Part shown: positions 1,920-51,421 of the stretch, piece after piece
How the letters are laid out: the number at the start of each line of letters is the position of its first letter
How positions within the stretch are numbered: the first letter of the stretch is position 1
Origin: Trichobilharzia szidati
Lineage: Eukaryota > Platyhelminthes > Trematoda > Strigeidida > Schistosomatidae
Reading direction: 5' to 3'
DNA: 64,000 nucleotides
Assembly (NCBI GenBank): GCA_944472155.2
Contig: OX235271.1
Coordinates: 105,413,256-105,477,255, forward strand
The notes under the pieces: model-generated
Databases searched by the model: none
Seen by the model: only the letters and a program-made list of their open reading frames with translations
What the model was told of the DNA's origin: nothing
Program-made: the position numbers and the translations under genes

Positions 1920-1925
1920 AATAAA
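1920..1925 (+). promoter_or_regulatory. Candidate polyadenylation signal (copy A)
   Basis: An AATAAA hexamer lies about 120 nt after the zinc-finger stop codon, a normal distance for a 3' UTR. It is conserved in copy B at 45,890-45,895. Confidence 0.5.
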
Positions 1926-5832: not shown

Positions 5833-5852
5833 CTAAAAATGTTAAAAACACT

Positions 5853-7405: not shown

Positions 7406-7410
<5 letters not shown>
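5853..7410. other. No gene seen
   Basis: Presumed intron or intergenic DNA upstream of the minus-strand exon. A 67-codon plus-strand frame at 6,461-6,664 is conserved in copy B but has no recognisable motif or splice context. Short TAAA repeats occur near 7,080-7,100. Confidence 0.4.

Positions 7411-7434
<24 letters not shown>
7411..7434. repeat. (TA)n microsatellite, copy A
   Basis: Twelve TA units here against twenty in the matching position of copy B (51,381-51,420). The 16-nt difference accounts for one of the offset steps between the duplicates. Confidence 0.9.
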
Positions 7435-7436
<2 letters not shown>

Positions 7437-8139: not shown

Positions 8140-11100
8140 TCAGTCAATGAAATGAACATAGCGGGTAGGTTTATAGATCTGCCGACCACTGCGTGTCTGA
8201 ACAGGGGGAAGTGTGAAGAGCGGAAGTGTAGGAGTTGCATTGATTTTCTCATTATTTATCGGTACAGGCGTTGCTATTGCTTCATATTCACTGTCCATGT
8301 ACGCTGGTTTCAGACGGTCAACAGAAACAGTTTCCTGCTTACCATTTTTGTTCAGTGTGAAGTATTTGTCAGTGCGCTTGAGTACTGGAAAAGGACCTTC
8401 ATATGGATGTTGTAAGCCTTTCCTAATGGCATCGACGCGAACAAATACAAATTTGCAAGTAAGTAGATTCTTGTTAACTTGAGCTTTGTGAAATGATTGG
8501 CGAGGGGCTACTGGTCGAAGATGAAGCATTTGCTGAGTAAGACGATTGGTAAAATCAGAGATATTTACATCAGTTGAATCATTGGAAAGAACTAACTGAC
8601 CAGGCAATGTGAGGGTAGTACCATACACGAGTTGAGCAGGTGTACATCCCAAGTCTTCTTTGACAGTTGACCGGGTACTGAGGAGAACTAATGGTAGGTG
8701 TTCACTCCACTTAGATGAGTCAGCTTGTGCCATCAAAGAGCTTTTCAGTTGTCGATGGAAACGTTCCACCAGACCATTCGCTGCAGGATGATAAGCTGTA
8801 GTGGAGATGTGGTTCATTCCAAGGAGTCTCGTTAGCCCTCGAAACAGAGTTGATTGAAATTGAGCTCCTCGGTCTGTGGTAATCGTTGTTGGTACTCCAT
8901 AGTTTGATACCCAACGATCTAGGAAAACCAAAGCGGTATTTTCTGCAGATATGTCGTTGAGTGGACAAGCAATAGCCCATCAAGTGAATCGATCGATAGC
9001 TGTAAGGATATGTGTAAAACCTCTGGATGGTGGTAATGGTCCAACAATATCTATGTGCACATGTTGAAATCGTTTATCTGGTAAATTGAACTGCTTTGGA
9101 GTTGTGACGGTGTGATGATGTACCTTGGACTTTTGACATTGCAAGCATTGGAGTGCCGATCTCCGAATATCGGAGTTCATTTTTGGCCAAACGAAACGCT
9201 CACTGATTAACTTAACCGTAGCACGTACTCCAGGATGAGACAGAGAATGTAGATGTTCAAATAAAGGTTTTCGACAACTTTGTGGAACAAAAGGTCGATG
9301 AACGCCGGTAGAAACGTCGCAGATGATAGTTGTATCAGACAGAGGAATAGGTATATCCTGCAACTGTAGGGAGGACTATCGTCTACTATTATGAAGTTCG
9401 GCGTCACTTTTCTGCAACTTGGCGATATTGTCTAAGCTAATGTCTATCGAAGATAGAAGCTGATTAACATCACATCGAGACAAAGAATCGGCTACAATAT
9501 TGGAATCTCCTTTGATAAACTGGATGTCTGTCGAGAATCGTGATATATAATCCAGTTGTCTGGCTTCTCTCGAGGAGTGTTTGTCCAACGAAGTGCTAAA
9601 AGCATAACAAAGAGGCTTATGGTCGGTTAAGATAGTAAAATGTCGACCTTGTAATAAGAAGCTGAAATGTTTCACTGCTAGATAGATAGCTAACAGTTCT
9701 GTGCCAAAAGTACTGTAACGTGTCTGAGCCGGTTCTGACTTCTTCGAAAAGAAAGCAAGTGGGGGTAACGTCACCATTAATCTTCTGCTGTAACACCGCG
9801 CCACAGCTACTTGGGAGGCATCTGTGCACAAGATAAGGGATGCTTCGGGGTTGATGTGGGACAACATAGCGACTTTAGATAAAGCGTCTTTAGCGTTGCA
9901 GAAAGATTCGTGTGCTTGCTCTGACCATTGAAATTTTTTAGGATCACTTTTAAGGAGATCGGTTAAAGGTTGGACGATAGAAGGAATAAAACGTCAATAG
10001 AAATTAAACATCCCCAAAAATTGTCGGACTTTCTTCAAAGAGTCTGGTTGGGGGAAGTTTTTGATTGTATCTATCTTTTCCTCAGTAGGCCTGATTCCCT
10101 CGGCAGTTATGTAGTGTCCTAGGCATTGAATAGAAGAGGCACCGAAAATGCACTTCTTAGGATTTATAGCGACACCATACTGTTCGAAACGCTGGAACAA
10201 AGTGCTAAGATGTTTCTTATGTTCCTCTTCCGACTTGCTAGCAATTATTACGTCGTCGATATAAACGAACACAAAGTCAAGGCCCTGCGTGACTCGGTCC
10301 ATGAAGCGCTGAAAAGTCTGTGCAGCGTTTTTCAGCCCGAAAGGCATTCGTAAGAATTCAAACAAGCCAAAAGGTGTTATAATGGCTGTCTTCTCGATGT
10401 CCTCAGGAGCGACTGGTATCTGGTGATAAGCTCTGACTAAATCCACTTTGGAGAAAATAGTTTTACCTTGCAGTATTAGAGAGAAATCATGCAAGTGCGT
10501 AATGGGATAACGATCTGGGACAGTGGCGTTATTCAAATGTCGGTTATCCCCACATGGTCGCTAGTCATGCTCAGCTTTTGGTACCATATGTATTGGTGAG
10601 GGCTGAGGACTGTTGGATGGCCAGATGATGCCCAATTGCATCATGTGTTCGAATTCAGCTTTGGCTGCTGCTAACTTGTCGGGTGGTAGTCGACGAGGAC
10701 GTGCTCTGACGGGTTGACCAGTTGTGACAATTTTATGCGTGACAGAGTGAGGAACATCTTCGCTATTATAAGATGGCTTTAAAATTTTTGGGGAACAATG
10801 CAGTAATGCAGAAAACATGCAATCATCTGGCTTTTCGATGCATATGTTGTAAACAGAGTAGTTTGAGATGATTCCGTGGACTTGAAGCTGGGTGCAGTTA
10901 TCAATCAGCTTTTTCTTGTTGACCTCAACCAGCAGATTGAAACTGCTTAAAAAATCGGCACCCAGTATGGCATGACGAACGTCAGCTACTATGAATATCC
11001 ATGTAAATCGACGACGTAAACCAAGATCCAAAATAAGTGATTGTTCGCCGTAGGTCCGTATGCTAGTTTGGTTAGCTGCTCGAAGTGAAAGTTTTGCAGC

Positions 11101-11244
11101 TGTGCTAGAAGACCGCCTGGAGAGTGAAGGAGGTATTACACTGACTTCGGCTCCTGTGTCTACCAGCAATAATGTGCCTGTGGTTTTGTCCCTCACGTAG
11201 AAAAGGCGACTTGAATGGTTGCCAGTAACAGCTGTCGCCATCAC
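8140..11244 (-). pseudogene. Gypsy-1 pol: protease-RT-RNase H-integrase, with nonsense codons (copy A)
   Basis: One long minus-strand frame broken by four stop codons: TAG 10,561-10,563, TGA 9,994-9,996, TAG 9,376-9,378 and TGA 8,980-8,982. In order it shows an aspartic protease ([15 protein letters not shown]), reverse transcriptase ([34 protein letters not shown] active-site motif), RNase H (CTDAS, LTDHKPLCYA, VADSLSRC), the integrase zinc module (HLHSLSHPGV...CLQCQ), integrase core ([33 protein letters not shown]) and a C-terminal PYEGPFPVL module. Around 9,770-9,800 a short frameshifted patch lies between two opposing 1-nt indels. It cannot encode a full polyprotein. Confidence 0.88.
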
Positions 11245-11428
11245 TGTCTGGCTGGGGAGTTTCCCTGAGCCGAGTTCCTACTGCTGAAAGCACATGGTTT
11301 CAAGCACCAAATAGCTCGGTTTCCAAACTTCTATGATACTAGCAAATATTTTGAGTACTAGACGTTGAGGTCCGCTGTCTTGAAAACGACCGTCGACGTT
11401 GCCGTGACCTGGGCGGTGATCTACTACC

Positions 11429-12121
11429 TCATGCACGTAAGCTTGAAATTTCAGTTTCTAGCTTTTCCATCTTATTCGTCAATGTCGAAATCGCTGACAA
11501 TATAGTTGTGTCGGTAGCAGACGTCCCTTGAACCGGTAACCCCTGACTTGTCGGTACGTTGTATATACTGGTTTCAGGCATTACATCTAGTATTCTATCT
11601 GCCAGCTCACTTAGTGCGTCTAGGTCGACCGATTTGGAGGAGATGGTCAAAACCTGTTGGATATGTCGTGGTAGCCGTTGCAACCACATCTGGCGTAAAA
11701 CCACGTCGTCAACTTGGTGTGGGTTAAGCAGTTGACGCATGTGCCTGAGGAGCTGAGATGGAGTCCGTGAGCCTAACTCACAAGCAGTAAGTAACTGTTG
11801 GATCCGTTTCTCATCTGAAACACTCCTTCTTTGAATCAAAACTGCTTTGAGCCTATCATACTGGTGGTCTGCAGGGGCGCTGTCAATTAAATCACTAATG
11901 TCTGATAGAACCTCTGTGGGCAGTGCGGCTAAAACACATCCATACTTCGCAATCTGTGACTTGATTCCGCGGGCAGAAAAGAGGGGTTCGATGATGGCAA
12001 ACAAAATCCGCGGCTCAGTGAAACCAAATAGCGGTAGACGCAGATCGACTATTGCGTTGATTGATGAGTCTTGTGCCTCCTTAGTCTCAGTTGCAGCAGG
12101 TGAACGTGTAGGTGAGGACAT
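11429..12121 (-). pseudogene. Gypsy-1 gag (copy A)
   Basis: Gag structural protein of Gypsy-1. A likely start is the ATG at 12,121 (MSSPTRSP...). The frame reads PRILFAIIEPLF..., LGSRTPSQLLRHMRQLL and MWLQRLPRHIQQVLTI, a pattern shared with Gypsy-2 gag ([29 protein letters not shown]), and typical of retrotransposon capsid-like domains. It ends early at 11,429. A degenerate nucleocapsid zinc-knuckle region (YHR...) with stop codons lies in another frame between 11,270 and 11,360. In copy B the equivalent of this ATG is ATA. Confidence 0.75.
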
Positions 12122-13189
12122 GATTATTATGCGAATATACAGGTACACAGATATAAATACATGGAATGTGCAGTCAAAAGTAAAAATAATAACAATAAAA
12201 ATATAGAGTTTCTATAAAGCTAAGATGTTCAAACGGGCTCACCGGTTATTCTGGCGGACCTAAGACTTTGCTAGCTTAATATACCGGATTCGAATAGAAA
12301 TAAAAATACAAAATCCGTACAGTTACTGGAAGAATATGTTAAAATTTGTCACTTGGGTTATTACAAGGTCCAAAATCCACAATTAACTTAACAGACTCCA
12401 GAAGCATTGTAAGAAGACTGCTCCAATCTTAATTCTCCAATGTCGATATTGACAGAAATCGACCAAGGTAACGTAGGGAGAAATTACGGTGTCCCTGCGA
12501 AATTTTGAAATAGAAGATAGGTAATTAGAATTGACCGATGGCAGTTGAGATGGTGGAGACGACGGAGAGTTGTAGGCAGAACTATATTTTCATTCAAAAC
12601 ACGAGGTTAAGTTCAAAGTACAGAGATCTTGGTTGAAACAAAGTAGTGTACAATATGTTCATTTCTCACATAATAGTAAAAGTTGGGCTGAAATTATCCC
12701 GCATGCTCAAGGTCATTGGTGGAGTGAGACGCTCAAAGGTCATTTGCGTCCATGTTAGTCGGCCATGTTGGGTTGCAATTCTGTATCCGTTCGTTTACAC
12801 ATTGTTTTTTACGTTTATCCTGCAGCTATTCACGACTTATCTTGATGCATATTGTTCACAAATGTTGCTTTTCAACTCATTTTTGTTTCCGTTGATGTTA
12901 AAATTCGTTGGTTTCGAAAGATTTTACCACCAGATCAGTGCATACATTTCATGATAGTTGTTTCATACCTTGCTTTCATGCGTGGTTTCAGTGTTTTAGT
13001 CGTTTTTCAGCCAATAATGAAATAGTGCTGTGTGGAAGTTTTGGAAAATATGCAAGTGAACATGTTTAGCTGACAAAAGCTGTTGTTTTTAGTTCATTTG
13101 CTGGTTGCCGTTATTGATTCTGGCTCAGTTGGTTACTTAGAATGTAGAAATCTCGAAAAAACAATGTCTTTCACATTCATGTTTACAAC

Positions 13190-13360
13190 ATGCAGCAGTC
13201 TACGAGTGAATCCGGTGAGGGGAATACGACCAGGGTTGCTATTGGCAAGTTTTCCGAAGAGCATATTAAACCTGGAGATTTCAGAACGTGGTTTGAAGTT
13301 GAAAAAGCTTTGAAGCTTTTTGAGAAGCTGAGCATACCATCAGTGTATATTATCAGTTAA
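13190..13360 (+). other. Small plus-strand reading frame, possibly a gag relic (copy A)
   Basis: A 56-codon frame starting at ATG 13,190 reads VAIGKFSEEHIKPGDFRTWF then EVEKALKLFEKLSIP. It resembles the start of an LTR-retrotransposon gag (a conserved W in a charged helix), but I cannot assign it. The two base differences I see between copies A and B in this frame are both silent (GAG/GAA, ACG/ACC). It is open at 57,177-57,347 in copy B as well. It may instead be an exon of a host gene. Confidence 0.3.
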
Positions 13361-14525
13361 AGAATCAGTTATATTGTCAGAGAATCTAAATCAAACAGGG
13401 TCAAGCCACATAAGAAGTATGAATCTGTTGTGCCTGTACGAAGTTTTGGAACTGAAAGAAACTTGATAGCAATCAGAAACCCCTAAATGGTAAGTGTTAC
13501 CTATGTTTAATAATGCCCAATATACTAGATCCAAATACATGAACTAGGACCGCCTGTACCAAAGCCAGTGTTAACGGCCATTCAGTGTGTTGCAAGACGA
13601 CTTAAAAAGCGGATAACATGGTGACCTGGTGAGTGTACGAACTATCCCAGTTGAAGGTAAGACTTTAATTAGCAAGAATAACGTTTCGGGTTGTGGTCTA
13701 CAATCGGTGGTTACAACAAGCTGAGAAGCTGATTATTATTCGGGGTGAAAATATTGGCTGAATACAGATTGCTTGTTTCATTTCAAATAATGGAATTCCT
13801 ATTTTTCGGATGTTTGTGATTTCTCCGTAGCTATAAATACGGATAACCATTATTTTTAAAAAAACTAAATAAATTTTCCTAGGACAATTGGTTTTCTATT
13901 TCTTGGTGAAATATCAAATTAATACGATTAGAAGATTAGGTAGCAAAGTAGAATGTTCTGTGATTGAGAATCGTAGTCGTCGTGTTTCGGGATTAATATC
14001 GCGCTTCTAACTATTATAACCCTATGGATATAGGCTTTCCCTAATGGTACATTATGATATCTAGAAGTCATAAGCACACTATCTTCAGTAAATTTATTCT
14101 TACTTCTTAAGGGACTGCAAATAGTGAGTCATTTGAGGTGATAGGATGAATACCTGTAAACGCTTTCGTTGAGATTATGGTATATTTACTTTTTCCGAGT
14201 GGGAGACGATCTTTTTACCAAGAAGGTTCTCAGGATGTCCACTTTTACTTTGAAATTCAAAGATAACGTTAAGTTGCTCACTAAGATATTAGCGGAAACC
14301 TCTTTAAGGTAGCTATGTAGCTTTAGGTAATGCGTCATAGAAGTAAGCAACGTAGTGTCTAAATATATTAAACGTTGTATAACTGGTCAAATCGTAGCTC
14401 TTACATACTAGTTAGTCTTATAAATAATGAATGCACCGTACAAACGTTTACTTTGATTTGCATATGTAGCTCATAAGCATTATACCTGCGTGTAATATAC
14501 ATTTAAGGCTGGTACGCTTGTTTCG
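13361..14525. other. No gene seen
   Basis: AT-rich spacer between the small gag-like frame and Gypsy-2. No exon, RNA gene or recognisable element found. It is repeated in copy B. Confidence 0.45.
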
Positions 14526-14821
14526 TGTTCTATTTGACTAAATTAGCGTACACGTATTTTCTAGTACTTCTTCACGTTTATCAATGTGCGCAGACGGTGT
14601 GGCTACTCGACGCCCACAACGTAAAATCAGAAGGCACTTGTGAAGAGTGTAACCGTGTATTATAGCAGTAGTCAAATTTCAAAATTGTATCAAGGTAACG
14701 CTCAACAGTAAATTGACAAATGTTTACGAAGTACATATAAAATCGGTATGTGTAAACATATAATATGAGTATGCAAATTAGATTAAAATCGTATGTTTAT
14801 AGTTGGTACAGGGGTTCTACA
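14526..14821 (-). repeat. Gypsy-2 3' LTR (copy A)
   Basis: A 296-bp direct repeat of 19,410-19,705, running TGTTCTATTT to GGTTCTACA on the plus strand. The purine tract that would prime plus-strand DNA synthesis lies just inside it, read on the minus strand. Confidence 0.95.
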
Positions 14822-15236
14822 TAATTCCCCCACCACAACACTGAAATATAAAAAAATACATTTAAGTGTTCGACAATAACATGCATCAGCATAATATGCA
14901 GCAGAGATAGTACGTAGAAAGCGATTTATTAAGCTGAAAAATGAGCAGTTTAATGCGGTTAATAAGGTCGATAATAAATGCGATAATAAAAGAAAAAATA
15001 GGATTGATGATCGTGGTAGAATATATAAGGAATGATACAATCGGCCGGGGATCTGTAGTCTGTATACGGAAACGATACGTGAATATTAAGCGCTATATGA
15101 CAAAATGTAATAATACAGGAAATATCGATGTTAAAATAGTAGTGACGTGATTTACGTATGAAAATATTAATCAGTTAAATGAGTAGTCAAATGACAATTA
15201 CGAATAAAGATAATAAAAATGAAAATTCGTAATAAG

Positions 15237-18200
15237 TTATATATTGATGATTTGTACATAACGTTTAGGCCAATGAACTCTCCTACCAGAGCGTGTTGTT
15301 TTCATAGGTTTCTCTGGCGACGTTGAAGCTTGCGTGGATGTAGCTGTTGGCACGTCGTTCAGCTGGTCTTTATCGTTGGCTTCGAAATCGTCGATGAATG
15401 CTGGTTTGACTCTGTCGACACTGATGGCTTCTGCTTTATTCAGTCGTTCTATCGTGATAACTTTATCATTTCTATTTAGAACTTTGAATGGGCCATCGTA
15501 AGCGGGTTGAAGTTGTCGTTGTACACCCTCTCTCCTGACGAAGACGTGAGTGCAATCTGTCAGTTGTGGCGGGATGTATGACGTTCGTTCCTGCTTGCGT
15601 GGAATTGATATCTTGAGCTCGTTCATGTGTTGTTTTAGCTGGTGCACATAACCAGTCATATCTTGTGGAACTTGGTTACCTGGGGTGAAAAATTCTCCTG
15701 GTAGTCGTAATGTTGTTCCATAGACTAGTTCGGAAACACAGCAGCCAATATCTTTCTTTAGAGCAGATCGTATACCAAGCAGTACCAGTGGGAGTTTGGT
15801 TGACCAGTCGTTTTGAGTCAAAGAAGCAGCGAGCGCAGCTTTGAGTTGTCGATGAAGTCGTTCAACCATGCCGTTGGAACTAGGATGGTAGGCGGTTGTT
15901 CGTATTCGTTTAATGCCCAGTAATTCAGTTAGCTGGTGGAAAAGTCGGCTTTCAAACTGAGCATCTCTGTCTGTAGTGATAATGGATGGGACACCAAAGT
16001 TAGCTATCCAGTTTTCGACCAAAGCTTTAGCTACCGTTTCAGCGGAGACGTTGGCTATTGGAACTGCTACAGGCCAACGAGTGAATCTATCGATGCAAGT
16101 TAGAATATAGTTGAAATCATTGGAAGGAGGTAGTGGACCAACTATGTCTACATGTATATGTTCAAATCTAGAGTCGGGGTTAGGAAAGCGACCAAGTGGT
16201 GCATTAGTGTGACGGTTGATTTTGACTCTTTGACATGACAAGCAATTTCGTGTCCACTTCTTAACATCGCTATTAATGTTCGGCCATATAAATCTTTCTT
16301 TTATTAGTTTGATAGTAGCGCTGACACCGGGATGAGACAAGTTATGTAACTTCTCGAATACTGTATGTCTCATAGCCGCTGGAACGAAGGGTCGATATTT
16401 ACCTGTAGAGGTGTCGCAGATTATTTTTGTCGTGCCAAAAGGAATTGCGTCTAGTTTTAAAGATGTTGTTTTAGAAGACACGATCTTCTTTAGTTCGGCA
16501 TCATCTCGTTGTAAGTTTGAGAGACGTTCGTAGTCGCTGTCTGGGCATACAATGTTGTCAATGTGCACACGTGATAAAGCGTCTGCCACTTCATTGTTTT
16601 TACCCTTCACATGTCGCAGATCGGAGGTGAACTGAGATATAAACTCGAGATGTCGTAGTTCACGCGGAGAGTAGTTATCCTGTTTTGCTGATAAGGCTTT
16701 CGTTAGAGCCTTATGGTCTGTAAAGACAGTAAAAGCTGTACCTTCCAGCATATGTCGAAAGTGCTTGATTGCTAAATAAACAGGCAATAACTCTCTACCA
16801 AAAGTGCTATAGCGGCATTGAGTAGGATTCAGTCGTTTCGAAAAGAATGCTAGGGGTTGCCATTCGCCGTGTACCTGTTGTTGTAAAACTGCCCCAATGG
16901 CAACGTCTGAAGCGTCAGTCATGAGAGACAGGGGGAGTGATTTTGGCGTCTGACTAAGAGTGTCTTGTCATTTAACAATTGTTTGACAGTTTCGAATGCT
17001 TTAACAGCTTCTGCGGGCAAATGGGTAGAACGACTATGTCCACGTAAGCAATCGGTTAATGGTTGTAAAGCTTTAGCACAGTTCGGGATAAAACGCCGGT
17101 AAAAATTAATGAGACCCAAAAATCGTCGTAATTTCTTAAAAGAATCTGGTAATGGATAATCTTTGATAGCTTGTACGTCATCAGGGACTGGTCTGATTCC
17201 TTGGCTATCGATTAAATGACCAAGAAATTTCAGTGGAGTCTAAGTTGATAGTCATACCGTATTGGTTAAGTCTTTCAAACACAGTGTTCACATGTTTCAA
17301 ATGCTCGGCTTCGTCTGCACTTGCAATTAGTAAGTCGTCGATGTATGCGTAGGCGAAAGGGATACCACGGAGTACTTGGTCAATTAGGCGTTGGAATGTC
17401 TGAGCGGCGTTCATAAGTCCGAATGGCATGCGTACGAATTCATATAAACCGAATGGTGTGGTAATGGCAGTTTCCGGAACGTCATCCGGGTGGATGGGGA
17501 TATGATGATACGCTCGGACAAGATCGATTTTAGAGAAAACTTTAACATCTGGTAAGTTGCTAGCGAAATCGTGGATATGTGGTATTGGGTATCGATCAGG
17601 TACCGTTTGCTTGTTTAAAGCTCGATAATCACCACACGGCCGTATCTCACCAGAAGACTTTTTGGGTACCATGTGAAGCGGTGAAGACCAAGAGCTGTTG
17701 GACGGTCGAATAATACCAAGCTCTAGCATTTTATCGAACTCTGTTTTGGCAATTTTAAGTCGATATGGGTCAAGGCGTCGGGGACGTGCAAAAACTGGTG
17801 GTCCAGTGGTTTTAATATGATGAACCACATGATGCTTCGGTTCTGTTCCTCGAAAAGAAGGTTGTAGAAGGTCAGGAAACTGATTTACCAAATTGGTATA
17901 TGGAGGTGCTGGTGTGCGTGTGACCATCAAGTTCAGTGATGATGCACGGCTAATCGTACCAGCAATGTACGTTTTATTGAGCGAATCTATTAGCTTGGGG
18001 CTTATCGGATCAACTAACAGTTTGTGTTGCTGTAGAAAATCGATACCGAGGATTGGGGATGGGACGTCTGCAAAGATGAAACACCAAGTGTAGGTATTCT
18101 TTAAACCAAAATCTAAAGTCATTCGCTTAGTTCCATATGTAACAATACTGGACTGATTAACAGCTTGGAGCGTAACTGCTGGGTCAGGATGCTGACATTC

Positions 18201-18326
18201 CTGTGTAGACGGAGGGAGAACACTCACCTCTGCTCCTGTGTCAACTAAGAATGTCGTACCGGTGTTTTTATCTGTTACATAAAACAAACAACTGTTAGAT
18301 CGTAGATTGCCAACAGTAGTTTTCAC
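15237..18326 (-). pseudogene. Gypsy-2 pol: protease-RT-RNase H-integrase with two frameshifts (copy A)
   Basis: Three consecutive frames make up pol. Bases 18,326-17,205 hold the protease ([15 protein letters not shown]) and reverse transcriptase ([37 protein letters not shown]). Bases 17,119-16,919 hold the RT connection (GLINFYRRFIPN). Bases 16,922-15,237 hold RNase H and integrase (561 codons intact): [33 protein letters not shown]...CLSCQ zinc module, [13 protein letters not shown] and [14 protein letters not shown], then an AYDGPFKVL module. Gag ends in TGA overlapping the pol frame start (GTGA), so pol would need a -1 frameshift, as is usual for Gypsy elements. The two breaks, near 17,215-17,235 and near 16,955, also occur in copy B. 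Confidence 0.9.
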
Positions 18327-19129
18327 ACAGACGATATATATTTTGGTTTAGTCTGAAAGTTGCAAGGTGAACGGTACCGTCGTGCATTGCTTCCATAACT
18401 ACGGTGATACCAGCAAATACTATCGCGATGTCGTAGCGTGCTAGGGGATCGAGAAAGACGTTGACGAGACGAGCTTCTAGAACGGCTTGGTTGTGTGCGT
18501 GTAGTCAGTTTTGCTAACTGACTCAGTAAGGTGTCGACTTTGTGTTCTAGAGTCTGTATTCTATCGTGAGTGTCTGGTATTCTGCTAGTGGAAGCGACAG
18601 ATTGAGGTGTTGACCTCTCGTACATGCGATCCGCGATTTCGGTGAGCCTTTCTATGTAAATGTCGTCGTCTCCGAAAGCAAGAACCTGCTGGATGTTTGC
18701 GGGAAGTCGTCGTAGCCATATTTGGTAAAAGAGACGTTTATCGATTTCTCTTCCTGCAACTAGGCTTTGCATATGCCTCATGAGTTGCGACGGGGTTTTA
18801 TCACCTAACTCAACATTGCTTAACAGGCGATCGAGTGCTTGCCTATCCGAAAGCGAAGTGCATCGCAGTACCTCTTCCTTCAACTTCTCGTAAGGCGCTT
18901 CTGTGCTGGGTTGGACGATGTATTGCCGTACCTGCTCGGTGACTTCGTCTGGTAGTACTGTACTCAAAATGCCAAATTTAGCTGTCTGTGACGTGAGCTT
19001 ATTGCTAGCCAAATAATGTTCCAGTCGAGCAAACCAAAGATGAGGGTCTCTGGGCTTAAAAACTGGTACAGTAAGAGAAATAATACTAACAGATCCCAAC
19101 TCTAAATTATCAGAGGTATTGGAAGACAT
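18323..19129 (-). CDS. Gypsy-2 gag (intact frame, copy A only)
   Basis: A capsid/nucleocapsid precursor of about 268 residues. I take the start at ATG 19,129 ([13 protein letters not shown]) because homology to Gypsy-1 gag begins soon after it ([20 protein letters not shown]). Later segments [13 protein letters not shown] and [16 protein letters not shown] match Gypsy-1. The C-terminus is Arg/Ser-rich with a cysteine/histidine cluster ([13 protein letters not shown]...C) suggesting a nucleic-acid-binding zinc knuckle. It is absent from copy B because the duplication ends before it. Confidence 0.82.
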
Positions 19130-19409
19130 GTTACAATTCGTAAAAAATGGTTTAAGAGTAGCAAAATGGCAAAATTTGTGCACAATAAGAATATGGCAAA
19201 ACAGAAAAACATGCAATGCAGATGCTTACCACAAACTACTGCAGGTTGTGCTATGAGCAAACACAAGAATGAGTTCGAATTGTTTAATAAATATATAAAT
19301 CCGCGAAAGTTAGAGTTTTAATAATCCAGCAAGTGTAATGACGGGTCGAGGTCAAAAGTCGTCGTCGTCGGAGTCAGCAATTTGTCGTCGGGCTCACCAA
19401 TTTGTTGCG

Positions 19410-20945: not shown

Positions 20946-20950
20946 ATCTC
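20946..20950. repeat. Target-site duplication, left (ATCTC)
   Basis: A 5-bp direct repeat flanking the chimeric element, matching 25,436-25,440 exactly. It shows that the two LTRs and everything between them inserted as one unit. Confidence 0.88.
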
Positions 20951-21343
20951 TGTAGGATTATTTTTTACCTACAAATTTATTCTTTCCTCAGTACTGACGA
21001 TACAGGGTCTCGGGTTAGCTATAGTTAAAAACAGGATGACTTGACTTAACTTTATCTGTTTCTAAAACATAAAATAAATCATACAATTACCCCAAGAAAA
21101 ATGTACAAATCCACTGTCATTACAAAAAGAGGACAAAAACGTACCGAACAGTATTGAGGGTACGGACAAAATGAACAGTCGATTAATTGCATGTATACAC
21201 AAATAGAGTGACAGACAAAAAAGAACACTCAAGGTCATCACGTGGTGAGAGTTACAATAAATTGACCAATAATCGCGACAAGAAGGTCACATCATATTGA
21301 TTAACTGTCTATCATATAGTCTATCTATCTGTCGCGATTAACA
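20951..21343 (-). repeat. BEL/Pao 3' LTR
   Basis: 393 bp, TG...CA. Compared with 25,043-25,435 it differs at five sites (about 1.3%) and has no indels. The last codons and stop of the chimeric frame (TAG at 21,321-21,323) lie inside it. Confidence 0.95.
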
Positions 21344-21692
21344 CTCCCCGCGAACGATCACCACGTTGACTTCTTGTACTTGGAACCATAAAGTTGTCTG
21401 CTTCTTCCAGCAAACATACGCTTCTTATATCTTGTTCCACTTCTTGAGTTGAAGTTTTCAAACACACTGTCCTGACGAGGCCATCTTGGTCATAGTACAT
21501 CTGCTTAACTATAGCCTTTCGCCAGAGACCTCTCTGTGTGTCAGCACTGTTAACTAAGACGAGATCATCAGGTTGTAGGTTGTGCTTTATATCCAACCAC
21601 TTAGATCTTGTTTGCAGCATCAGAAGATATCCACGTAGCCATTTATGCCAGAGCAAATCAGTCAAATATTTTGGAAGTAGTTGACTATAGTG
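21321..21692 (-). CDS. BEL/Pao pol C-terminal domain (DUF5641), 3' part of the chimeric frame
   Basis: About 123 codons beginning near HYSQLLPKYL. The segments LLWHKWLRGYLLMLQTRSKW, NLQPDDLVLVN, GLWRKAIVKQ and DGLVRTVCLKT...IRSVCLLEE match the DUF5641 domain that follows integrase in BEL/Pao pol (typically W..YL..LQ.R.KW...D.VLV...W..G.V......G.VR.V..KT). It marks the element as BEL/Pao and is its only surviving pol segment. It is in frame with the DPP III part upstream, and the tail runs through the purine tract into the 3' LTR. Confidence 0.85.
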   Translation of the reverse strand, partial: HYSQLLPKYLTDLLWHKWLRGYLLMLQTRSKWLDIKHNLQPDDLVLVNSADTQRGLWRKAIVKQMYYDQDGLVRTVCLKTSTQEVEQDIRSVCLLEEADNFMVPSTRSQRGDRSRGVLIATDR

Positions 21693-22604
21693 TTGGAAGA
21701 AAGCATATCCATACATAGCATTCGCTTTACCTTTGTAATATTGTAATTTTCTTAAGAATTCACCAATTGTTGAACGAGCCGCAGTTAAAAGCCCTTTTGG
21801 AACGACTACTTCATCTGTACGTACCATAAAATCGTCAGCCTCAATCAAAACTCGCAGAATCGCATAACAAGCACAGCAATGTGCTTGACACCATGATCCA
21901 ATGTCATCAGCATTTCCTGCTGGAGAATAAAACTCTATGGAAGTTACAACTGAAGGAATCATTGACAACCAATTAATATAGACTACATCTGAGACATCGC
22001 CTTGAGCACAGTTGGTATTCAAACCGAACTGCTCCAGAACAAGAGGTAAATCAGATAAATTAATTCCAACGCACTCAGTTTGACACTCTTCGATTGCGGA
22101 TGAAAGCTTTGAAAACTTGCTGTCAAACGTTTCTCTTGGTTCACACCAACCTTTTATAGGACCTCCATTTATGACATATTCAGTAGTTTTCGTGTGGAAA
22201 TTTCGTTTTCCATAACAATCACACCGAAACAGTTTACCAGAACTATATCCCATCAGCTCATGAAGTCCAACTTGTAATTTAAAGGAACTTTCAATATGTT
22301 CCACGTACATTTGCTTGTCTTCATTACGTAGAAATTCTGTTTTAGGATCCTTGAAACGAACACTAAGTACATTATCCAAAGAAACATTTTTAAATCCATC
22401 AACTTGTCGTACATCATCATAGTTAGGAATATTAGTTCCAACAGGAATTCCAGAAGTCGCGAACGTCACTACATCAATACTAGTAAAGTTTGGCTGTAAG
22501 AAATTAACTTTTTCAGACGTAGAATACCAGGGTAAACTTGTTAACAACCTTTCAGCATTATTTACAAGTCGTTGGAATTTTTTAGACACTGACCTATTTA
22601 CAAC
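21693..22604 (-). CDS. Captured dipeptidyl peptidase III fragment, active site altered
   Basis: About 304 codons matching the catalytic half of DPP III (peptidase family M49), a cytosolic zinc enzyme that removes dipeptides from peptide N-termini. Recognisable segments are SKKFQRLVNNAERLL, FTSIDVVTFATSGIPVGTNI, PNYDDVRQVDGFKNVSL, HELMGYSSGKLF, WDSKF-like FDSKFSKLSS, EECQTECVG and DVVYINWLSM. The family zinc motif is HELLGH; here the second histidine is tyrosine (TAT at 22,245-22,247), while the first His, the catalytic Glu and the EEC motif remain. The enzyme's N-terminal half and extreme C-terminus are missing. The host gene is not in this window. The part has no introns and reads in frame with its neighbours on both sides. 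Confidence 0.9.
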
Positions 22605-24839
22605 AGCGTTGAAATGACTTTCTGCAGCAAACGTGTCAGCCTTGACTTTGAATGCATCTATACGTTTACGAAGAGCAGCTACATCATATTCAAGCAAGTT
22701 GTGCCGCTTTTGTGCCTTCATCACACCGTTTAGATCACGACCGACATCCTCTGAGGCTAAATGAGCTTCAACATCATTCAACCATTACTCGACATCTTCT
22801 ACGTTGCGAGCGAACTGTTGTTACCTACTTGCTTGATCTAAATTTTTCTTCTTGTCTCCCATGACATTTACGAGATGAGACCAAGTTTCATCCAACTGTT
22901 CAATCTTTACTTTTATTTCTGGCGAGTTGCAGTGGTCTGCATTTAACAAATCCTGACCTGTCTTTTTAATATCTTCAACGCGGGATTGGTTCGCTTGTAT
23001 TTCTGCCTCAAAATTCTGGTGCTTCTGCATATTTGTTTGCAAATTCGTGGAGTCTTTGTAACTTTCATCAAGTGCGTTTTCAAGTTTTCTTGATATCCAT
23101 GACTGCATTTCATCTGCATCTCTATCGAACATTTGGTAGCGGTGGTAATCTTCAAGACGCTGACGGCGGTTCTGAGCTTTCTCCTTTAATGCATTTCGTC
23201 TATTTTGGAGACCTTCCTGAATCTCATGAACCTGTGCAGCCGCATAGTGGTTTGATTCGATTAAGTTTGCAGCGAATTCATCAAGTTGCCGCATCTTTTC
23301 TTCTTGTGCTAAAAGTGACTTTTCGAAGTCTTCATGTTTCCTTATGAGTGCTTCCACAGAATTGAGTGAGCCTCCCACATCTTTTGTTTCTAAGAGGGCC
23401 TCTTGCTTACCAATCCAAGATTCCGACTGTTCAGCGTCGCGGTAAAAATACTGAAGGCCCATACACTGTTCTAGCTGTTCACGTCTTTCCTCACACAACT
23501 GCATCAGGGAGGCTCTCTCTCTTTCAAGGGTGGAAAGTTTAGCAGCTATGTCTCCATTACATGGATGGCCAACACTTAGTAATGCCTGACCTTCTTGCAT
23601 GCATGTATCCAAACTGTCAGCTCGAGAATTTATCTCAGCGGTGTATTCCTTATGTAGCTCTACTTGGGCTTCAGCACCGGCTTTATCCTTTGCCAAATCA
23701 TCCGCCGATATTAACGTCTTCATTTCATTCATCCAGATACTCAAGTCTCTCCAGTCAGCCAAAAAGCGATGCATCTTGAATGACTCTTCCAGTTTACCTC
23801 TCCTATCTACAGCCTGACCTTTCAGCTTATCCCATGCAGTAATTAAGGCGTCATACTTGCCTTGTATAGTGTCTAACGAATCAGGATGCTTCTGTGCAAG
23901 CGCCTTAGCATCATTTCCAAGTTGAACAATCTTTTCATCTGGAGCAGTCAAATCCCTTTCTAATGCTTCGTGCTTCCTTTGTAAGGCTTGAACTGAGGCA
24001 AGATCACGACCACAGTCCTCAATGGATAAAGGAATTGACTTTTCATTCACCCACGATATAGCTCTATCTGTGTCTCTAAAGAAGCTCTGTATCTCATAGG
24101 CTTCCAGTAGCTTTTCTTGTCGTTTTCTAGCCAGACCCTTCAGACGTTCTAGAGCTTCGCGGACCTCTCTGGACTTTTCTATGACTAGGGCATCCTCAGG
24201 AAATTCCTCTTTTAGAAATTCATCTGCCTTCCGATAGATATCTTCGGCACGACTTTCTTGATACTCGAGATCCTTTGTAAACTCATCAAACCCTTTTTGA
24301 AGTGTCTCAACATGTTCCAGGTCTTGACCGAAATCCTCTGATGTTACGTAAGTTTCTTTTTCACGTATCCAGAAAAGTATCTCCTCGACTTGGCGTAAAA
24401 ACTGGACAAATATAAGCATTAGGTTAATAAGACGTGACTTTTCTCTGAAAATAGCCATAAGCCTTTCCCACAGGGCATGCAATTCATCAATACGGTTTTT
24501 GATAATATCTGTTGCGTAGTGTCCCTGACCATTCATTTCTTCTCCCGCAGAATCCAGAGCTGACAGTGTTTCAGCATGAACTGTTACTTCGAACTCAAAC
24601 TCTTGATGTTTCTGTTTCTTCACCTGAAGATTACTGAGTTCTTTAAAATCCTCATTTGCATATGTTTGCAGTTTTTTATTGATCCAACACTCAAGTTCAT
24701 CGGAATCCATTTTAAAATATTGATATCTTTTAAGCATGTCCAGAAACTTAGATATGCCTCTGGCGAACTCATCATTAAGAGATACAGCGACTTTATGAGA
24801 AGTAGAAGGTTTGTAAGGCGATTTATTGTGACAAGAACA
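22605..24839 (-). pseudogene. Captured alpha-spectrin N-terminal repeats, intronless, two nonsense codons
   Basis: About 740 codons. The clear match to alpha-spectrin starts near KRYQYFKMDSDELECWI (first repeat) and continues through successive triple-helical repeats, each with the conserved tryptophan (ELECWI, EILFWI, RAISWV, LSIWMN, SESWIG, EMQSWI, WLNDVEAHL), to ESHFNA in about the seventh repeat. In cells alpha-spectrin pairs with beta-spectrin in the membrane skeleton. The EF-hand C-terminus, SH3 domain and later repeats are not present. Two stops interrupt the frame: TAA 22,821-22,823 (apparently from CAA) and TAA 22,785-22,787 (apparently from TTA). There are no frameshifts or introns. 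About 34 codons between the gag-like leader and the first clear spectrin residues are unassigned. Confidence 0.92.
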
Positions 24840-25028
24840 TTAGCGACTACCTTGTCGTAATCTTTCTAATTCCATTTCTTTCTCTTTTTGAACTATGCGC
24901 AATCTCGCTAGCTTCAATTCTACCATATAGCGTGATTTATTCTCGTTGCTTCCAGTGAAATCAGATTCATTACTTTTTTCTAACTGTGGAGTTAACAACG
25001 GCATAGTTTCATAACTTTCGTCCGCCAT
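24840..25028 (-). CDS. Gag-like leader of the BEL/Pao chimera
   Basis: 62 codons starting with ATG 14 nt inside the 5' LTR and ending in TAA at 24,840-24,842. It reads MADESYETMPLLTPQLEKS, then a basic, heptad-like segment (ELKLARLRIVQKEKEMELERL). Its place directly after the LTR and its charged helical end suit the start of a BEL/Pao gag, but similarity alone would not prove it. It is in the same frame as the spectrin part, so a single nonsense codon separates them. Confidence 0.6.
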   Translation of the reverse strand: MADESYETMPLLTPQLEKSNESDFTGSNENKSRYMVELKLARLRIVQKEKEMELERLRQGSR

Positions 25029-25042
25029 ACTGTTCGAAGCTT

Positions 25043-25435
25043 TGTAGGATTATTTTTTACCTACAGATTTATTCTTTCCTCAGTACTGACTATACAGGGT
25101 CTCGGGTTAGCTATAGTTAAAAACAGGATGACTTGACTTAACTTTATCTGTTTCTAAAACATAAAATAAATCATACAATTACCCCAAGAAAAATGTACAA
25201 ATCCACTGTCATTACAAAAAGAGGACAAAAACGTACCGAACAGTATTGAGGGTACGGACAAAATGAACAGTCGATTAATTACATGTATACACAAATAGAG
25301 TGACAGACAAAAAAGAACACTCAGGGCCATCACGTGGTGAGAGTTACAATAAATTGACCAATAATCGCGACAAGAAGGTCACATCATATTGATTAACTGT
25401 CTATCATATAGTCTATCTATCTGTCGCGATTAACA
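25043..25435 (-). repeat. BEL/Pao 5' LTR
   Basis: 393 bp, TG...CA, matching 20,951-21,343. It should contain the element promoter. The bases directly inside it (AAGCTTCGAACAG, minus strand) do not start with the usual TGG of a primer-binding site but contain CTTCGAAC, similar to a tRNA T-loop, so priming from an internal tRNA site is conceivable. Confidence 0.95.
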
Positions 25436-25440
25436 ATCTC
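25436..25440. repeat. Target-site duplication, right (ATCTC)
   Basis: The partner of 20,946-20,950. Confidence 0.88.
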
Positions 25441-26227: not shown

Positions 26228-27365
26228 AAGTTAAACTTTAGACACCAATAACTACCAATCAGCGATGACGTCGAATTATCCAATGAGATTCACGAACGTA
26301 GTTCAATGTTGTACAGCGCTTGATTCACTTACAATGCGTGCCCTTACAAGGTTACGTTTGCAGTTCGAGGAGGATAGTGTAGTTCAGTATTGCCTAAACT
26401 TAGGCTTGCTAAGAAAGGAGAGAAAGTGTTCCTGTGGCGGTGTTATGACTCTGAAAAGCTATTCGATGTCAACTGATGGATTTGTCCATCGTTGTGGAAT
26501 ATGTTGGAAACGAGTTAGTATTAGAGAGGGTAAGCTGCTAATTTTAATATTCCGCAGGAACATTTTTGCTAGGTCACATCTCTCTCTAACCCAAGTTTTG
26601 TATATCTGCAACTATTGGGTACTGAAGCAGCCAGTGAGAGTGGCAGCTGCGGAGACGGAGAACAACCTCGTCTCAACAGTCCAATGTTATCAGCATTGTA
26701 GAGATATAGCATCATGGAAAATGGACAGAATTACTTCGCTGTTAGGCGGGGAGGACGTAGTAGTCCATGTAGACGAGACAGTGTTGATAAAGAAGAAATA
26801 CAATCGGGGTCGTCAGAGAGCAAACAACATTTGGGTTATCGGTTTATACGACACGTCCCTTCGAAAAGGGTTTGTTGAAAGGATAGGAGACAGGAAGGCG
26901 AGCACTTTGATCCCTATTATAACTCGACTTGTGAAAAGGGGATCAATTGTGCATATGGACGAGTGGAAAGGCTATGATTCCTTGTCATCTCTGGGTTACA
27001 TTCACCATGGAGTGAACCACTCGAATGATTACGTCGATCCTGTTACTGGGACTCATACCAATTCAAATGAAGGTTTTTAGGGGAGATTGAAAAATAGGAT
27101 CCGGGCTATAAAAGGGTGGCAAAAGGATCCCATTTTTAGTCATTTGGACGAATATATGTACAGAATGTGGTGCGATTCTTCTATTGACAGTCCCATCTTT
27201 TTGTCCCATGTTCGAGAAAGATAACCATTGTAACGGTTTTATACTTTTTTCTATGCATTTTTGTACAAATATACGCTTCCACTTACCATAAACGCCTCTT
27301 CAATGTGATTGGTCAGTTCAAGGTCGTTTGCTGATTGGTTGTTATTGGTGTCGGAAGTTTAACTT
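26228..27365 (+). mobile_element. Merlin-type DNA transposon
   Basis: About 1.14 kb bounded by 36-bp terminal inverted repeats (26,228-26,263 and 27,330-27,365) that match at 33 of 36 positions, starting AAGTTAAACTT. The interior encodes a Merlin/IS1016-type transposase. Merlin elements are known from schistosomes. No clear target-site duplication was found, so the exact outer ends are uncertain by a few bases. One nonsense codon inactivates the transposase. Confidence 0.88.
26265..27224 (+). pseudogene. Merlin transposase with one premature stop
   Basis: Cut-and-paste DDE transposase related to bacterial IS1016/IS1595. The ATG lies one base after the left terminal inverted repeat. An N-terminal zinc-ribbon-like module has two cysteine pairs (C55/C57 in CSCGG, C77/C80 in HRCGICW). 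The catalytic triad is D170 (VHVDETVL), D232 (VHMDEWKGY) and E269 (TNSNEGF). A TAG at 27,078-27,080 replaces the Trp expected in NSNEGFW. The frame then continues without a shift (GRLKNRIRAIKGW...FSHLDEYMYRMW) to the natural stop TAA at 27,222-27,224. Restricting the gene to the first 271 residues would omit a conserved C-terminal segment, so I call it a pseudogene. Confidence 0.9.
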
Positions 27366-27615: not shown

Positions 27616-28860
27616 CTAACTAACTATTCTCGTGATGCTTACTTTTATATTGTGTGAACTAATATTATTGTCCCGTGTAAAATTGTCTATCATGTACTTA
27701 CAATAATATAAAAATTTATAATTGTAGTTTAATGAACTTAAAATATCTATGTGGGGTGAAAAAGTGGGTGTAGGATTCAGACGCAGAAGTGCACTGTCAT
27801 CTTTGAGCAGTCTGGTGACTGAGGAGATGAACACTGCGAGTGTGTTTGCATCGCGCACATCAGCTGGTAGCCTATTCCGAATGACTGAAAACTTATTTAA
27901 GAAGAAATTATTCCGCATGTAAGTCTGACAATGCTCTATAGCAACTAGGTTGTGATGATTTCTAAGATTGTAACTGATGACAGCGGTAGGTTTAATTATT
28001 GGCTCGGAGGAGTGCACGAGCAGATTAGTTAGCTTGTAGTAAAAAATCAGGTTCAGCTTAAGACGTCTTTTCCAGAGTGGTTCTAAACTTAGTCTGTCGC
28101 AACGTTCATAGTATTTGAGGCCACTTTCTAAACCAAGAATTCTTAAGGTGAATTGCCGTTGCACTCCTTCTAACTTAAGCCTGTCATTTTGTCCGAGTCC
28201 GCTAAGAATAAGCGGGCAGTATTCTAAAATAGGTCGGACACATACTTTATTTAATAAAACCCTGGTTTCACAACAAAATAAATTGCGAGTTATGCATCCT
28301 AGGAGCCTTCGTGTTTTACGTCTCGCACAATCGGTTTGTTCAGAGAACGTTAAGTTACTAGAGTATCTGATACCGAGATCTACGACTGAGTTGAGCTTGG
28401 CTAGTTTACGCCCATTTATTTCAAGATTTAGGTCAAGGTTACTGTTTCCGATACAAATCCAGCCGCATTTATCAATGTTGAACTTTAGACAGGATTCAGT
28501 ACACCATGTTGCGAGACCACTTAGTTCAAGATGTATTTTAGTTACCATATCGCTTAGTTCATGAGCGAAGCAGGAGTAAACGACTTTGAGGTCGTCAGCA
28601 TATAGGAATGATTTACCTAAGGTGAAGCAGTTGCAAATGCTGTTGATGTATGCTGTAAATAAAAGTGGACCTAGGACACTACCTTGCACAACCCCACTTG
28701 TGATCTGCCTAAGATGAGACAATACAGATCCAACCTTGGTTATTTGTACCCTATTGCTTAGAAACGATTTTAACCACTTCAGTGATGGATTGCGAATCCC
28801 ACATGAATACAGCTTCTCAAAGGGAATACTGTCAAAACTTGTAGAAAATAAAGCGCTTGT
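27616..28860 (-). mobile_element. CR1-like non-LTR retrotransposon, 5'-truncated, intact 3' part of RT frame
   Basis: About 415 codons without a stop. It begins in the RT palm (FDSIPFEKLYSCGI, WLKSFLSNRVQITKVGS), then has SGVVQGSVLGPLLFTAYIN and the catalytic FLYADDLKV motif, and continues into the thumb and C-terminal region (KCGWICIGN, SVVDLGIRYSSNLTFSEQ, RPILEYCPLI, LNLIFYYKL). The 5' part of the element (endonuclease and first half of RT) is missing, as is usual for target-primed insertion. It meets a plus-strand relative head to head at about 28,840. Confidence 0.85.
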
Positions 28861-30836
28861 GGGTAACTCCAAAAGTCAGGAACTTTGTGGGATATTGCAG
28901 AAACGTCGAAACAGCAGTAAAGACAATATTGTGAGCAGCTTGGAACATAAGAATATAATATACAATGATCCCCAGGTTATGAGTGAACTCCTCAGTGAGT
29001 GGTTTTGCAATGACGCCAGAGTGCACCCGACCCAAAATTTCCAAATGACCTGCAAAAGTAACCACAAATTAGGCGAAATAGACTTTAATATACAAAATAT
29101 AGACTCAGCGATTAAAACGTTGAAGTCTAATGGTAGTACTGGAACAGACGACATACCATCTATCATATACAAAAATGGTAGCACGGAAATGGTAATCTTG
29201 TTACTTAGAATATCTACTCTCTCGTTGGAAACTGGAACTTATCCTGAAGTGTGGAAAACCACATACATATTACCTAAGCACAAAGCAGGGGCCAAAACCA
29301 GTGCGTGCAACTATAGACCTATCAATATAACACCGGTAACATCCCGAATAATGGAGAAAGTGGTTAAAGACCGAGTGTCAGACAACTTACTAGAACATGA
29401 ACTTATCAATCCATCACAACACGGATTTCTCAAAAAGAGATCATGTGTTACCTGTCACAGACATTTTCAACGAAGTTACACGAAGTAGGGACGACAGAGA
29501 ACTAGTAATTGTACTACATTTCGACATAACAAAAGCCTTCGACAGAGTTCCCCATAATCTGCTAGTCATCAGGTTATGCTCACTAGGGATATGTGACCCT
29601 CTCCTGAGCCGGATAAAATCATTTCTCTGTGGTCGAAGTCAGACAACGAAAGTTGGCTCGATAATCTCAAGGCCTAAACCAGTAAGTAGTGGTGTGATCC
29701 AGGGAAGTGTATTAGGCACACTCTTATTCATAATATATATAAACAGTGTCTGTGAATGCTTTAGTGAAGGTAAACCAATACTACATGCAGATGACTTAAA
29801 AGTGACCTATAAATACAAGAACACAGATCTTGGAATAACAGTAAACACCATACAGCAATAATTAGAAAAAATGGATACATGGTGTGACACCTGGCAACTC
29901 CAATTTAATGTCGAAAAATGTGGCTGGCTCTGCATAGGTTGCAACAATTTAGAACTTGACCTGACAATTCAAGGCCATGCACTTCTACGACTGGAATCTG
30001 TGCTGGACCTAGGGCTGAAATATTCACATAACTTGTCATTTTCTGAACATATCTCCAAACAAGTGTCAAAGTCACGCAGACTTATCGGCTTTCTACTCAG
30101 GAACTTCTACAGAAATGAGTCTAGAATTCTGTTGTACAAGGTTTGTGTGTGTCCTTTATTTGATTACTGGTAACTCGTGTATAGTAGTATACGCATAGAG
30201 GACAAATTGAAAGTCGAGGGAGTGCAGAGGTACTCCACGTTAAAATTACTCGGAACCGAAAATGGTGCGAACTACTCCACTAGATGTGATACCCTAGGAC
30301 TAGAAACACTATGGCTAAGACGCCTGAGACTAAACTTGACACTTTACTATAAGCTTCTAAACCACTTAGGTTTTACCTCTACTAATGGCACTCGACTTTC
30401 AGATGACAATGGCTACAAACTTAGACACACTAAGGGTACAGTAGCTATAGAACAATGTTAAACAGCCACCAGGCAAAAGTTTTACTTGATTAGGTACGCA
30501 CAGATATGGAATAAACTACCAATGGAAATGCGTCAAGCAAGTACATTTCTTATTTTTTCTATTTTGATTTACAGCTTGATTCCACACCGTATTTTCAGTA
30601 CAAGTGTGGAACTTTCAGCATGTGATATCGGTAGCCCAAATTCAGGCCGACCATAGATATCGGGTGTGCGTCGGCAGGGGATCGAACCCCGGACCATGTG
30701 CATGGTCGGCGAGAGTCCTAACCACTGTGCCTCCTTCAAAAAGGTGCTTAATGACAAACTACAAGAGTTTGCAAACGATAGTAGTTCTAGTTCCTATCTG
30801 AGAGCCTCCGAAATTATAGGTCCATTTAATGTATAA
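28836..30836 (+). pseudogene. CR1-like reverse transcriptase, second copy, broken and carrying a SINE
   Basis: A diverged relative of the minus-strand copy. It starts upstream of RT (ENKALVGNSKSQEL) and shows RT fingers (GTDDIPSIIYKNG, YRPINITPVTSRIMEK), motif A (HFDITKAFDRVPHNLL), SSGVIQGSVLGTLLF, and a mutated motif C, HADD in place of YADD. A frameshift lies near 29,455; in-frame stops follow at 29,859-29,861, 30,171-30,173 and 30,459-30,461. A SINE interrupts the coding sequence at 30,550-30,734, after which SFKKVLNDKLQEF resumes and the frame ends at TAA 30,834-30,836. It is dead. Confidence 0.85.
30550..30734 (-). mobile_element. tRNA-headed SINE inserted in the CR1-like element
   Basis: On the minus strand it starts GGAGGCACAGTGGTTAGGAC and contains RNA polymerase III promoter boxes A (GGCACAGTGG) and B (GGTTCGATCCC), then a body (GATATCTATGGTCGGCC) and tail (ACGGTGTGGAATCAAGC). 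A second copy on the plus strand is at 41,980-42,165. It splits the CR1-like coding sequence, so it inserted later. A clear target-site duplication was not seen. Confidence 0.85.
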
Positions 30837-49802: not shown

Positions 49803-49822
49803 CTAAAAATGTTAAAAACACT

Positions 49823-51420: not shown

Positions 51421-51421
<1 letters not shown>

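Follow-up and report, generated by a model that had tools for sequence, protein, structure and literature searches.

How does a retrotransposon come to carry, between its own terminal repeats, pieces of two unrelated host genes, and is such an object the accident of one locus or a family that moves? The question is raised by an element on the minus strand, at positions 20951 to 25435, of a 64,000-nucleotide stretch of the Trichobilharzia szidati genome (1.11 Gb; assembly GCA_944472155.2, contig OX235271.1, here C1, positions 105,413,256 to 105,477,255 of the forward strand), referred to below as the window. An earlier reading, made from the sequence only, had taken it for a non-autonomous BEL/Pao element with long terminal repeats (LTRs) that packaged and recombined two host messenger RNAs (mRNAs), those of alpha-spectrin and dipeptidyl peptidase III (DPP III), and then reinserted. 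Our analysis shows that the chimera is a real and recently mobile retrotransposon family. The window very probably holds a broken copy of this BEL/Pao family, in which intronless spectrin residues 46-785 and DPP III residues 225-647 are flanked by the first part of gag and the last part of pol, in one frame in unbroken copies; two successive template switches likely brought them in, and an intact BEL relative probably mobilised the product.

Architecture of the window copy

The features of the window copy, in the order in which the element is read, are as follows.

25436 to 25440, no strand: target-site duplication (TSD) ATCTC, element 5′ side; the same 5 bp flank loci L047-L050
25043 to 25435, minus: 5′ LTR, from repeat comparison
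24732 to 25028, minus: gag leader, beginning at its ATG and covering some 95 residues of the BEL gag N-terminus; a stop in the window copy, open in other copies
22605 to 24731, minus: intronless alpha-spectrin piece, beginning at residue 46 of native P0241; its end was removed by a 381-bp deletion
22604 to 22605, minus: secondary spectrin/DPP III joint, where the 381-bp in-frame deletion took out the original fusion point
21666 to 22604, minus: intronless DPP III (M49) piece, up to residue 647; the HELLGH zinc motif reads HELMGY
22349 to 22350, minus: position of native DPP III intron 1, exactly excised by comparison with the native gene
22146 to 22147, minus: position of native DPP III intron 2, absent from the element; the native 5′ splice site was read
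21321 to 21665, minus: BEL/Pao pol C-terminus (DUF5641); its stop codon falls within the 3′ LTR
20951 to 21343, minus: 3′ LTR, with a short purine tract before it, from repeat comparison
20946 to 20950, no strand: TSD ATCTC, element 3′ side, from the sequence

The LTRs, TSD, gag leader, spectrin, DPP III and pol tail were thus borne out by repeat comparison and Pfam where the sequence-only reading had placed them. The direct repeats at 20951-21343 and 25043-25435 are 393 bp each with 5 differences (Kimura two-parameter distance, K2P, 0.013), and they start with TG and finish with CA when read on the minus strand, which is the element strand. One open reading frame, 22821-24737 (-), consists of spectrin repeats (Pfam E 8.6e-122), and another, 21321-22781 (-), runs from the spectrin tail through DPP III (Peptidase_M49, E 2.6e-95) into DUF5641 (E 1.5e-20). 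A chance origin of this architecture is excluded. The copy is broken by two stops in the spectrin part and one in the leader, so that the earlier description of both host genes in one frame does not apply to it.

Pfam found no reverse transcriptase (RT), RNase H or integrase core in the frames of the window copy or in the gag-bearing frame of the family described below, which makes the element a non-autonomous derivative rather than an autonomous member of BEL/Pao. Its TG...CA LTRs with a short TSD and its DUF5641 are those of BEL/Pao, gag (DUF1759) with Cys-His boxes and protease being present in the gag-bearing form and about 95 gag residues in the window copy, and its interior is a long coding frame, which separates it from large retrotransposon derivatives (LARDs) and terminal-repeat retrotransposons in miniature (TRIMs), defined by a non-coding interior. 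The TSD length of BEL/Pao elements is 5 bp. No transfer RNA was found in the window by ARAGORN.

A dispersed family and its original fusion point

At all 30 loci examined around LTR matches, tblastn placed at least one of the internal parts (leader, spectrin, DPP III, pol tail) next to the LTR. Spectrin or DPP III was present at 27 of them, and the other three (L014, L023 and L029), with short flanks, had leader or pol tail only. Among 23 longer loci (L031-L053), which are partly non-independent (L033 and L034 form one array, and L047-L050 are one insertion), 21 had both spectrin and DPP III; within the stretch examined, L043 showed a piece of the pol tail only and L053 spectrin only. A 501-bp probe spanning the window joint matched at all 40 places scored, the best 40 of 297 candidates. 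Four of these matches were contiguous, one in the window and three in duplicates of its insertion, and in the other 36 the two halves of the probe lay about 365-380 bp apart. The 36 places, one of which (L047) is the window's own insertion, were spread over contigs C1, C2, C3, C4, C6, C8 and C588. A probe of spectrin residues 10-200 gave 150 contiguous matches out of 150 (the best 150 of 1511 candidates), whose first residue varied from 33 to 45 and was 41 or 42 in most. The chimera family is present at dozens of places and likely at well over a hundred; the spectrin matches were ranked by score, which favours less decayed copies, and the check for DPP III covered a minority of them.

Insertion signatures were compared for 16 LTR pairs. 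Nine of them, representing five insertions, have a perfect 5-bp TSD (GGACA, AGGTA, GTGGG, CCGGC and ATCTC), L035 has a TSD one base off, L036 and L042 have none, and the remaining four are units of tandem arrays, the whole array on C4 being bordered by ATTCA. K2P between paired LTRs ranged from 0 (L031) to 0.029 (an array pair), which indicates recent movement. A one-off insertion is ruled out by the dispersed copies with their own TSDs, and the view of the locus as a single element gives way to that of one copy among many. The search for other insertions of the spectrin-DPP III chimera, which had been suggested as a check, returned the 36 further two-half places scored and the fusion in T. 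regenti. Near-identical copies and tandem LTR-internal arrays can mislead assemblers, and an assembly artefact or collapsed repeat might be suspected for this reason; we reject it as practically impossible, because the same joints recur dozens of times across several large contigs, with distinct TSDs, and also in the separately assembled proteins of T. regenti.

Tandem arrays of the form LTR-internal-LTR-internal were observed at L041 (C721), which holds parts of three units, at L033/L034 (C4) and at L045 (C2). The chimera copy at L031, whose two LTRs are identical, contains at 3504-5795 (-) a frame of 763 residues resembling that of a long interspersed nuclear element (LINE).

The earlier reading had placed the spectrin-DPP III junction at 22,604/22,605. 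L047, L048, L049, L050 and the window have common flanks (98.6-99.4% identity) and a common TSD, and are therefore segmental duplicates of one insertion. A 381-bp in-frame deletion with its joint at 22604/22605 is common to the window, L048, L049 and L050, and is absent from L047. Since the same insertion exists at L047 without the deletion, the window joint is secondary. It is ruled out as the capture point, being a deletion that followed insertion, and the original fusion lies elsewhere. Gene conversion of L047 would be a possible, though less economical, explanation. Copies without the deletion join spectrin residue 785 to DPP III residue 225, and the same 785/225 fusion is found in T. regenti protein P0009. 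The element lies within a region of recent segmental duplications, in which window positions 1-17916 recur at 43953-61871 (17.9 kb, about 99.35% identity, 44 kb downstream), and further copies are located at C1:105.28, 105.38 and 105.53 Mb and on C695.

Donor genes, likely intermediate forms and probable order of capture

Both donor genes, native alpha-spectrin and native DPP III, were located in the same genome, as the sequence-only reading had hoped. Copies L034 and L035 share 92-96% identity with the native alpha-spectrin P0241 of T. szidati in their spectrin part and 86-87% with T. regenti DPP III P0003 in their DPP III part, other copies being mostly lower. The native T. szidati DPP III gene (L054), which was read only as far as the splice site after codon 476, encodes codons 1-407 in exon 1 and codons 408-476 in exon 2, with a short GT-AG intron between them and a GT splice site at the end of exon 2, and its HELLGH is intact. 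The element is continuous across both splice points, with intron 1 removed exactly. Native alpha-spectrin was found at C1:210.95 and 212.21 Mb, the match beginning at residue 811, and was not among the best 150 contiguous matches (of 1511) for residues 10-200, which indirectly suggests introns in that part of the native gene. The gene is present twice, 1.26 Mb apart and with equal identity (C1:210947036-210951585 and C1:212208773-212213736), as a duplication or a retained haplotype.

The common form of the chimera runs from a leader of about 95 gag residues into spectrin 46-785, DPP III 225-647 and DUF5641. In a second form (L032, L033 and L034), gag and protease of about 616 residues stand ahead of spectrin 282-785, and L031 has a different gag-protease/spectrin joint and has lost most of spectrin. 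Pfam recognised in one gag-bearing frame DUF1759 (E 4.1e-15), a weak aspartyl protease below the curated cut-off, spectrin, M49 and DUF5641; the gag-protease is 53-54% identical to BEL/Pao proteins of Schistosoma rodhaini and S. bovis. The passage from DPP III to DUF5641 reads through in frame. If LINEs had made processed copies of both genes that landed by chance inside a BEL element, the LINE-like frame inside the L031 copy and the RT fragments in the window would find a natural place. However, both pieces are internal, truncated at both ends, and in frame with BEL and with each other, DPP III ends at residue 647, short of its own C-terminus, and continues into DUF5641, and no poly(A) was seen at the spectrin-DPP III joints examined. 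We therefore reject this explanation as very improbable.

Forms with DPP III but without spectrin were also found. T. regenti P0125 consists of gag, pre-RT pol, DPP III from its 5′ untranslated region (UTR) and start, and DUF5641, and its UTR-derived residues closely match the 5′ UTR of native T. szidati DPP III. T. regenti P0014 has the same pre-RT/UTR/DPP III joint with a spectrin fragment ahead, which recombination or a joint made by the gene model may explain. Two T. szidati loci have a protease and, behind it, the N-terminus of DPP III, about 480 bp on at C6:56523223 to 56524180 (protease 90% identical to the chimera's) and about 710 bp on at C3:35407922 to 35407212 (-) (87% identical). 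Trees group both captured pieces with the native Trichobilharzia gene, after the split from Schistosoma; the stem is 0.085 for DPP III (support 100/100) and 0.010 for spectrin (91/83), and the T. szidati copies of DPP III form one clade (100/100). The spectrin-less forms and the longer DPP III stem favour DPP III first and spectrin second, which would make two successive captures likely, both of them likely older than the split between T. regenti and T. szidati. Horizontal exchange is also possible.

The capture of spectrin and DPP III together in one reverse-transcription event, with the spectrin-less copies arising afterwards by recombination with other elements or with host DPP III, would account for the fusion point that P0009 has in common with the T. 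szidati copies, and recombinant architectures do exist in the gag-protease-spectrin forms with their two different joints. We consider it improbable, since the spectrin-less P0125 has the DPP III 5′ UTR and N-terminus on BEL pre-RT pol, the same joint recurs in P0014, protease precedes the DPP III start at the two T. szidati loci, and the DPP III stem is much longer than that of spectrin. What remains of the original proposal is a non-autonomous BEL/Pao element that took up two host transcripts and reinserted, in agreement with the intronless pieces, LTRs and TSD; uptake of both in a single event at the window joint is not supported, since that joint is a later deletion and the spectrin-less forms point to two successive captures.

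A helper for the chimera was sought among RT-bearing BEL elements. The RT region of an S. rodhaini BEL element matched a T. szidati group at 63-80% identity (150 scored matches), and two RT-bearing T. szidati members have an uninterrupted frame of 1780 residues. With the protease region of the chimera as query, 53 rows were at least 80% identical; RT came next on the same strand in 21 of them (17 within about 0.4 kb and 4 at 1.5-2.6 kb), spectrin in 13 and the DPP III N-terminus in 2. The protease region is 98% and 96% identical to the two 1780-residue copies. RT-bearing copies lie, for instance, near C2:94442361, C3:62960902 and C8:91152721. Judging from protease region and RT, this RT-bearing BEL lineage is a likely candidate for the helper, and the autonomous parent that had been looked for thus has a likely lineage in the same genome.

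Under the reading by two successive captures, RT would first have jumped from BEL RNA to a packaged DPP III mRNA, 5′ UTR included, and returned before the pol tail, thereby replacing RT, RNase H and integrase. A later switch to alpha-spectrin mRNA would have replaced the DPP III N-terminus together with the pol sequence ahead of it; the commonest form would also have lost the protease and most of gag in this way. The resulting RNA, with LTRs, primer and packaging signals retained, could then have been mobilised in trans. The window copy afterwards underwent the 381-bp deletion and was duplicated with its surroundings.

Several points weigh against this account. The motif GATGC at the spectrin/DPP III joint is also found in native DPP III, for one joint and on the DPP III side only, and splicing of the spectrin piece is implied indirectly by the probe matches. 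The two spectrin-less T. szidati loci are defined by match positions and not by the intervening DNA. Each tree holds one native Trichobilharzia sequence, P0009 fills 47% of the spectrin columns, and the comparison of stem lengths assumes similar rates in both pieces. As for the helper, 17 of the 53 protease rows had no listed partner, and the link covers protease region and RT, with the LTRs outside the comparison.

Open frames and precedents in other systems

Selection was counted on 14 copies, one per known duplicate group, with multi-base codon changes left out. The 194 changes shared by at least two copies comprised 136 nonsynonymous and 58 synonymous changes and no nonsense change (10.5 expected, P 2e-5), and without the two copies that have uninterrupted frames shared nonsense was again 0, against 9.4 expected. 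Among 539 singletons, 363 were nonsynonymous, 162 synonymous and 14 nonsense, against 29.2 nonsense expected (P 1e-3). The ratio of nonsynonymous to synonymous changes (N/S), corrected for mutation spectrum, was 0.88 of neutral for shared changes and 0.84 for singletons. Frames of at least 1340 residues were present at 50 of 121 places among the score-ranked spectrin matches, with 6 entries (native spectrin and two other spectrin-like matches) left out; 13 of 14 further rows lay on counted places, the exception being C8:9695367 (936 residues). They were also present in 43 of the 150 best-ranked spectrin-probe rows, one of which is interrupted by a stop within the matched part; both lists are score-ranked and partly cover the same places. 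A frameshift shared by L032, L035 and L036 was set aside, since it lies within a GA repeat and may reflect recurrent slippage. The final His of HELLGH, a zinc ligand, is Tyr in 20 of 20 readable copies, 2 of 22 not being covered. Nonsense depletion, near-neutral corrected N/S and the lost zinc motif together suggest that the frame is kept and the protein is not: the reading frame seems to stay open, with amino acid changes accumulating at a nearly neutral rate.

A working chimeric protein is another possible meaning of the open frame, and some of the numbers tell against mere openness: uncorrected pooled N/S polymorphism (pN/pS) among copies, window included, is 0.61 for spectrin and 0.70 for DPP III, and the near-neutral value depends on a mutation spectrum estimated from the same copies. 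Co-option of the spectrin-DPP III polypeptide as useful to the element or the worm, under protein-level selection, would also agree with the long open frames in both lists, the depletion of nonsense and the ratio of nonsynonymous to synonymous substitution rates (dN/dS) of 0.28-0.41 between element and native gene. This last ratio, however, mixes the element branch with the constrained host branch, corrected N/S is 0.84-0.88 of neutral, and the zinc ligand is gone from every readable copy. We rejected co-option as the principal explanation, regarding it as unlikely. The account by two successive captures supposes that frame-broken RNAs were not propagated, for example through RNA decay or a need for translation to reach the pol tail, while the encoded host sequence drifted. 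A bolder reading, to which we give somewhat less than even odds, is that the host complementary DNA (cDNA) serves as open-frame filler: a BEL/Pao satellite that twice swapped enzymes for host mRNA became more numerous than its helper, and its RNA is selected to remain translatable all the way from gag to the pol tail, whatever the protein. If this reading is true, the family represents a natural pipeline, still at work, in which an animal retrotransposon assembles multi-domain frames, fuses them and spreads them, with parent, one-gene form, two-gene form and recombinants all kept in one genome. The family also offers a case in which selection for an open frame, as distinct from selection on the protein, can be put to the test.

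Most of what is known of the uptake of host genes by LTR elements comes from retrocopies, from maize Bs1 and from retroviral oncogenes. In oncogene transduction a host mRNA is recombined into an LTR genome, which then needs a helper. The chimera shares both traits, but it implies no envelope or infection, and its two genes are unrelated and non-signalling. The maize LTR element Bs1 is described in PMC13317346 and PMC8616336 as having transduced pieces of three host genes, fused to gag, and to that extent resembles the chimera in carrying several host gene pieces. Bs1 is a plant element, whereas the chimera is an animal BEL/Pao element, dispersed in many copies, with one fusion shared by two species and with intermediates and a likely parent lineage present in its own genome. 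In the LTR-mediated retroposition of animals (Tan et al., cited in PMC5408686), particles package an mRNA, the template is switched where short stretches are similar, and the chimeric cDNA is inserted with LTRs. Chimeric cDNA from mRNA, inserted with LTRs, is common to both; the products there are retrocopies, and here two likely serial captures led to a dispersed, transposing family. Sinbad, a schistosome Pao/BEL element, has 386-bp LTRs, a Cys-His gag and a protease (PMC554778); by these descriptions the chimera is similar in LTR size, gag and protease, and differs in having host sequence in place of RT, RNase H and integrase.

Among the openly licensed papers listed by our searches we found no report of host-gene capture by BEL/Pao and no paper on a retrotransposon with spectrin and dipeptidyl peptidase III. 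Within those papers, the claim that such a capture had not been described stands for BEL/Pao, while several host genes in one LTR element have a precedent in Bs1. New here are BEL/Pao, an animal host, likely serial capture, high copy number and preserved stages. Because the likely parent, one-gene form, two-gene chimera, recombinants and donors are found in one genome and partly in the sister species, the order, age and selection of serial capture become measurable. Protein models P0147 and P0002 (T. szidati) and P0001, P0007, P0009, P0014 and P0125 (T. regenti) are likely element copies and not genes, a warning to annotators that such copies can pass as gene models.

Other mobile elements lie near the window copy. 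Beside it, at 26265-27080 (+), a frame of 271 residues has an ISXO2-like (IS1595) transposase domain, and 27616-29488 holds two RT fragments, one per strand, LINE-like by reading, the second of them below the Pfam cut-off. An LTR-type element at 15237-19216 combines a DUF7041 frame with RT, RNase H and integrase; frames of similar arrangement are located at 8140-12148, and both sets recur in the downstream duplicate.

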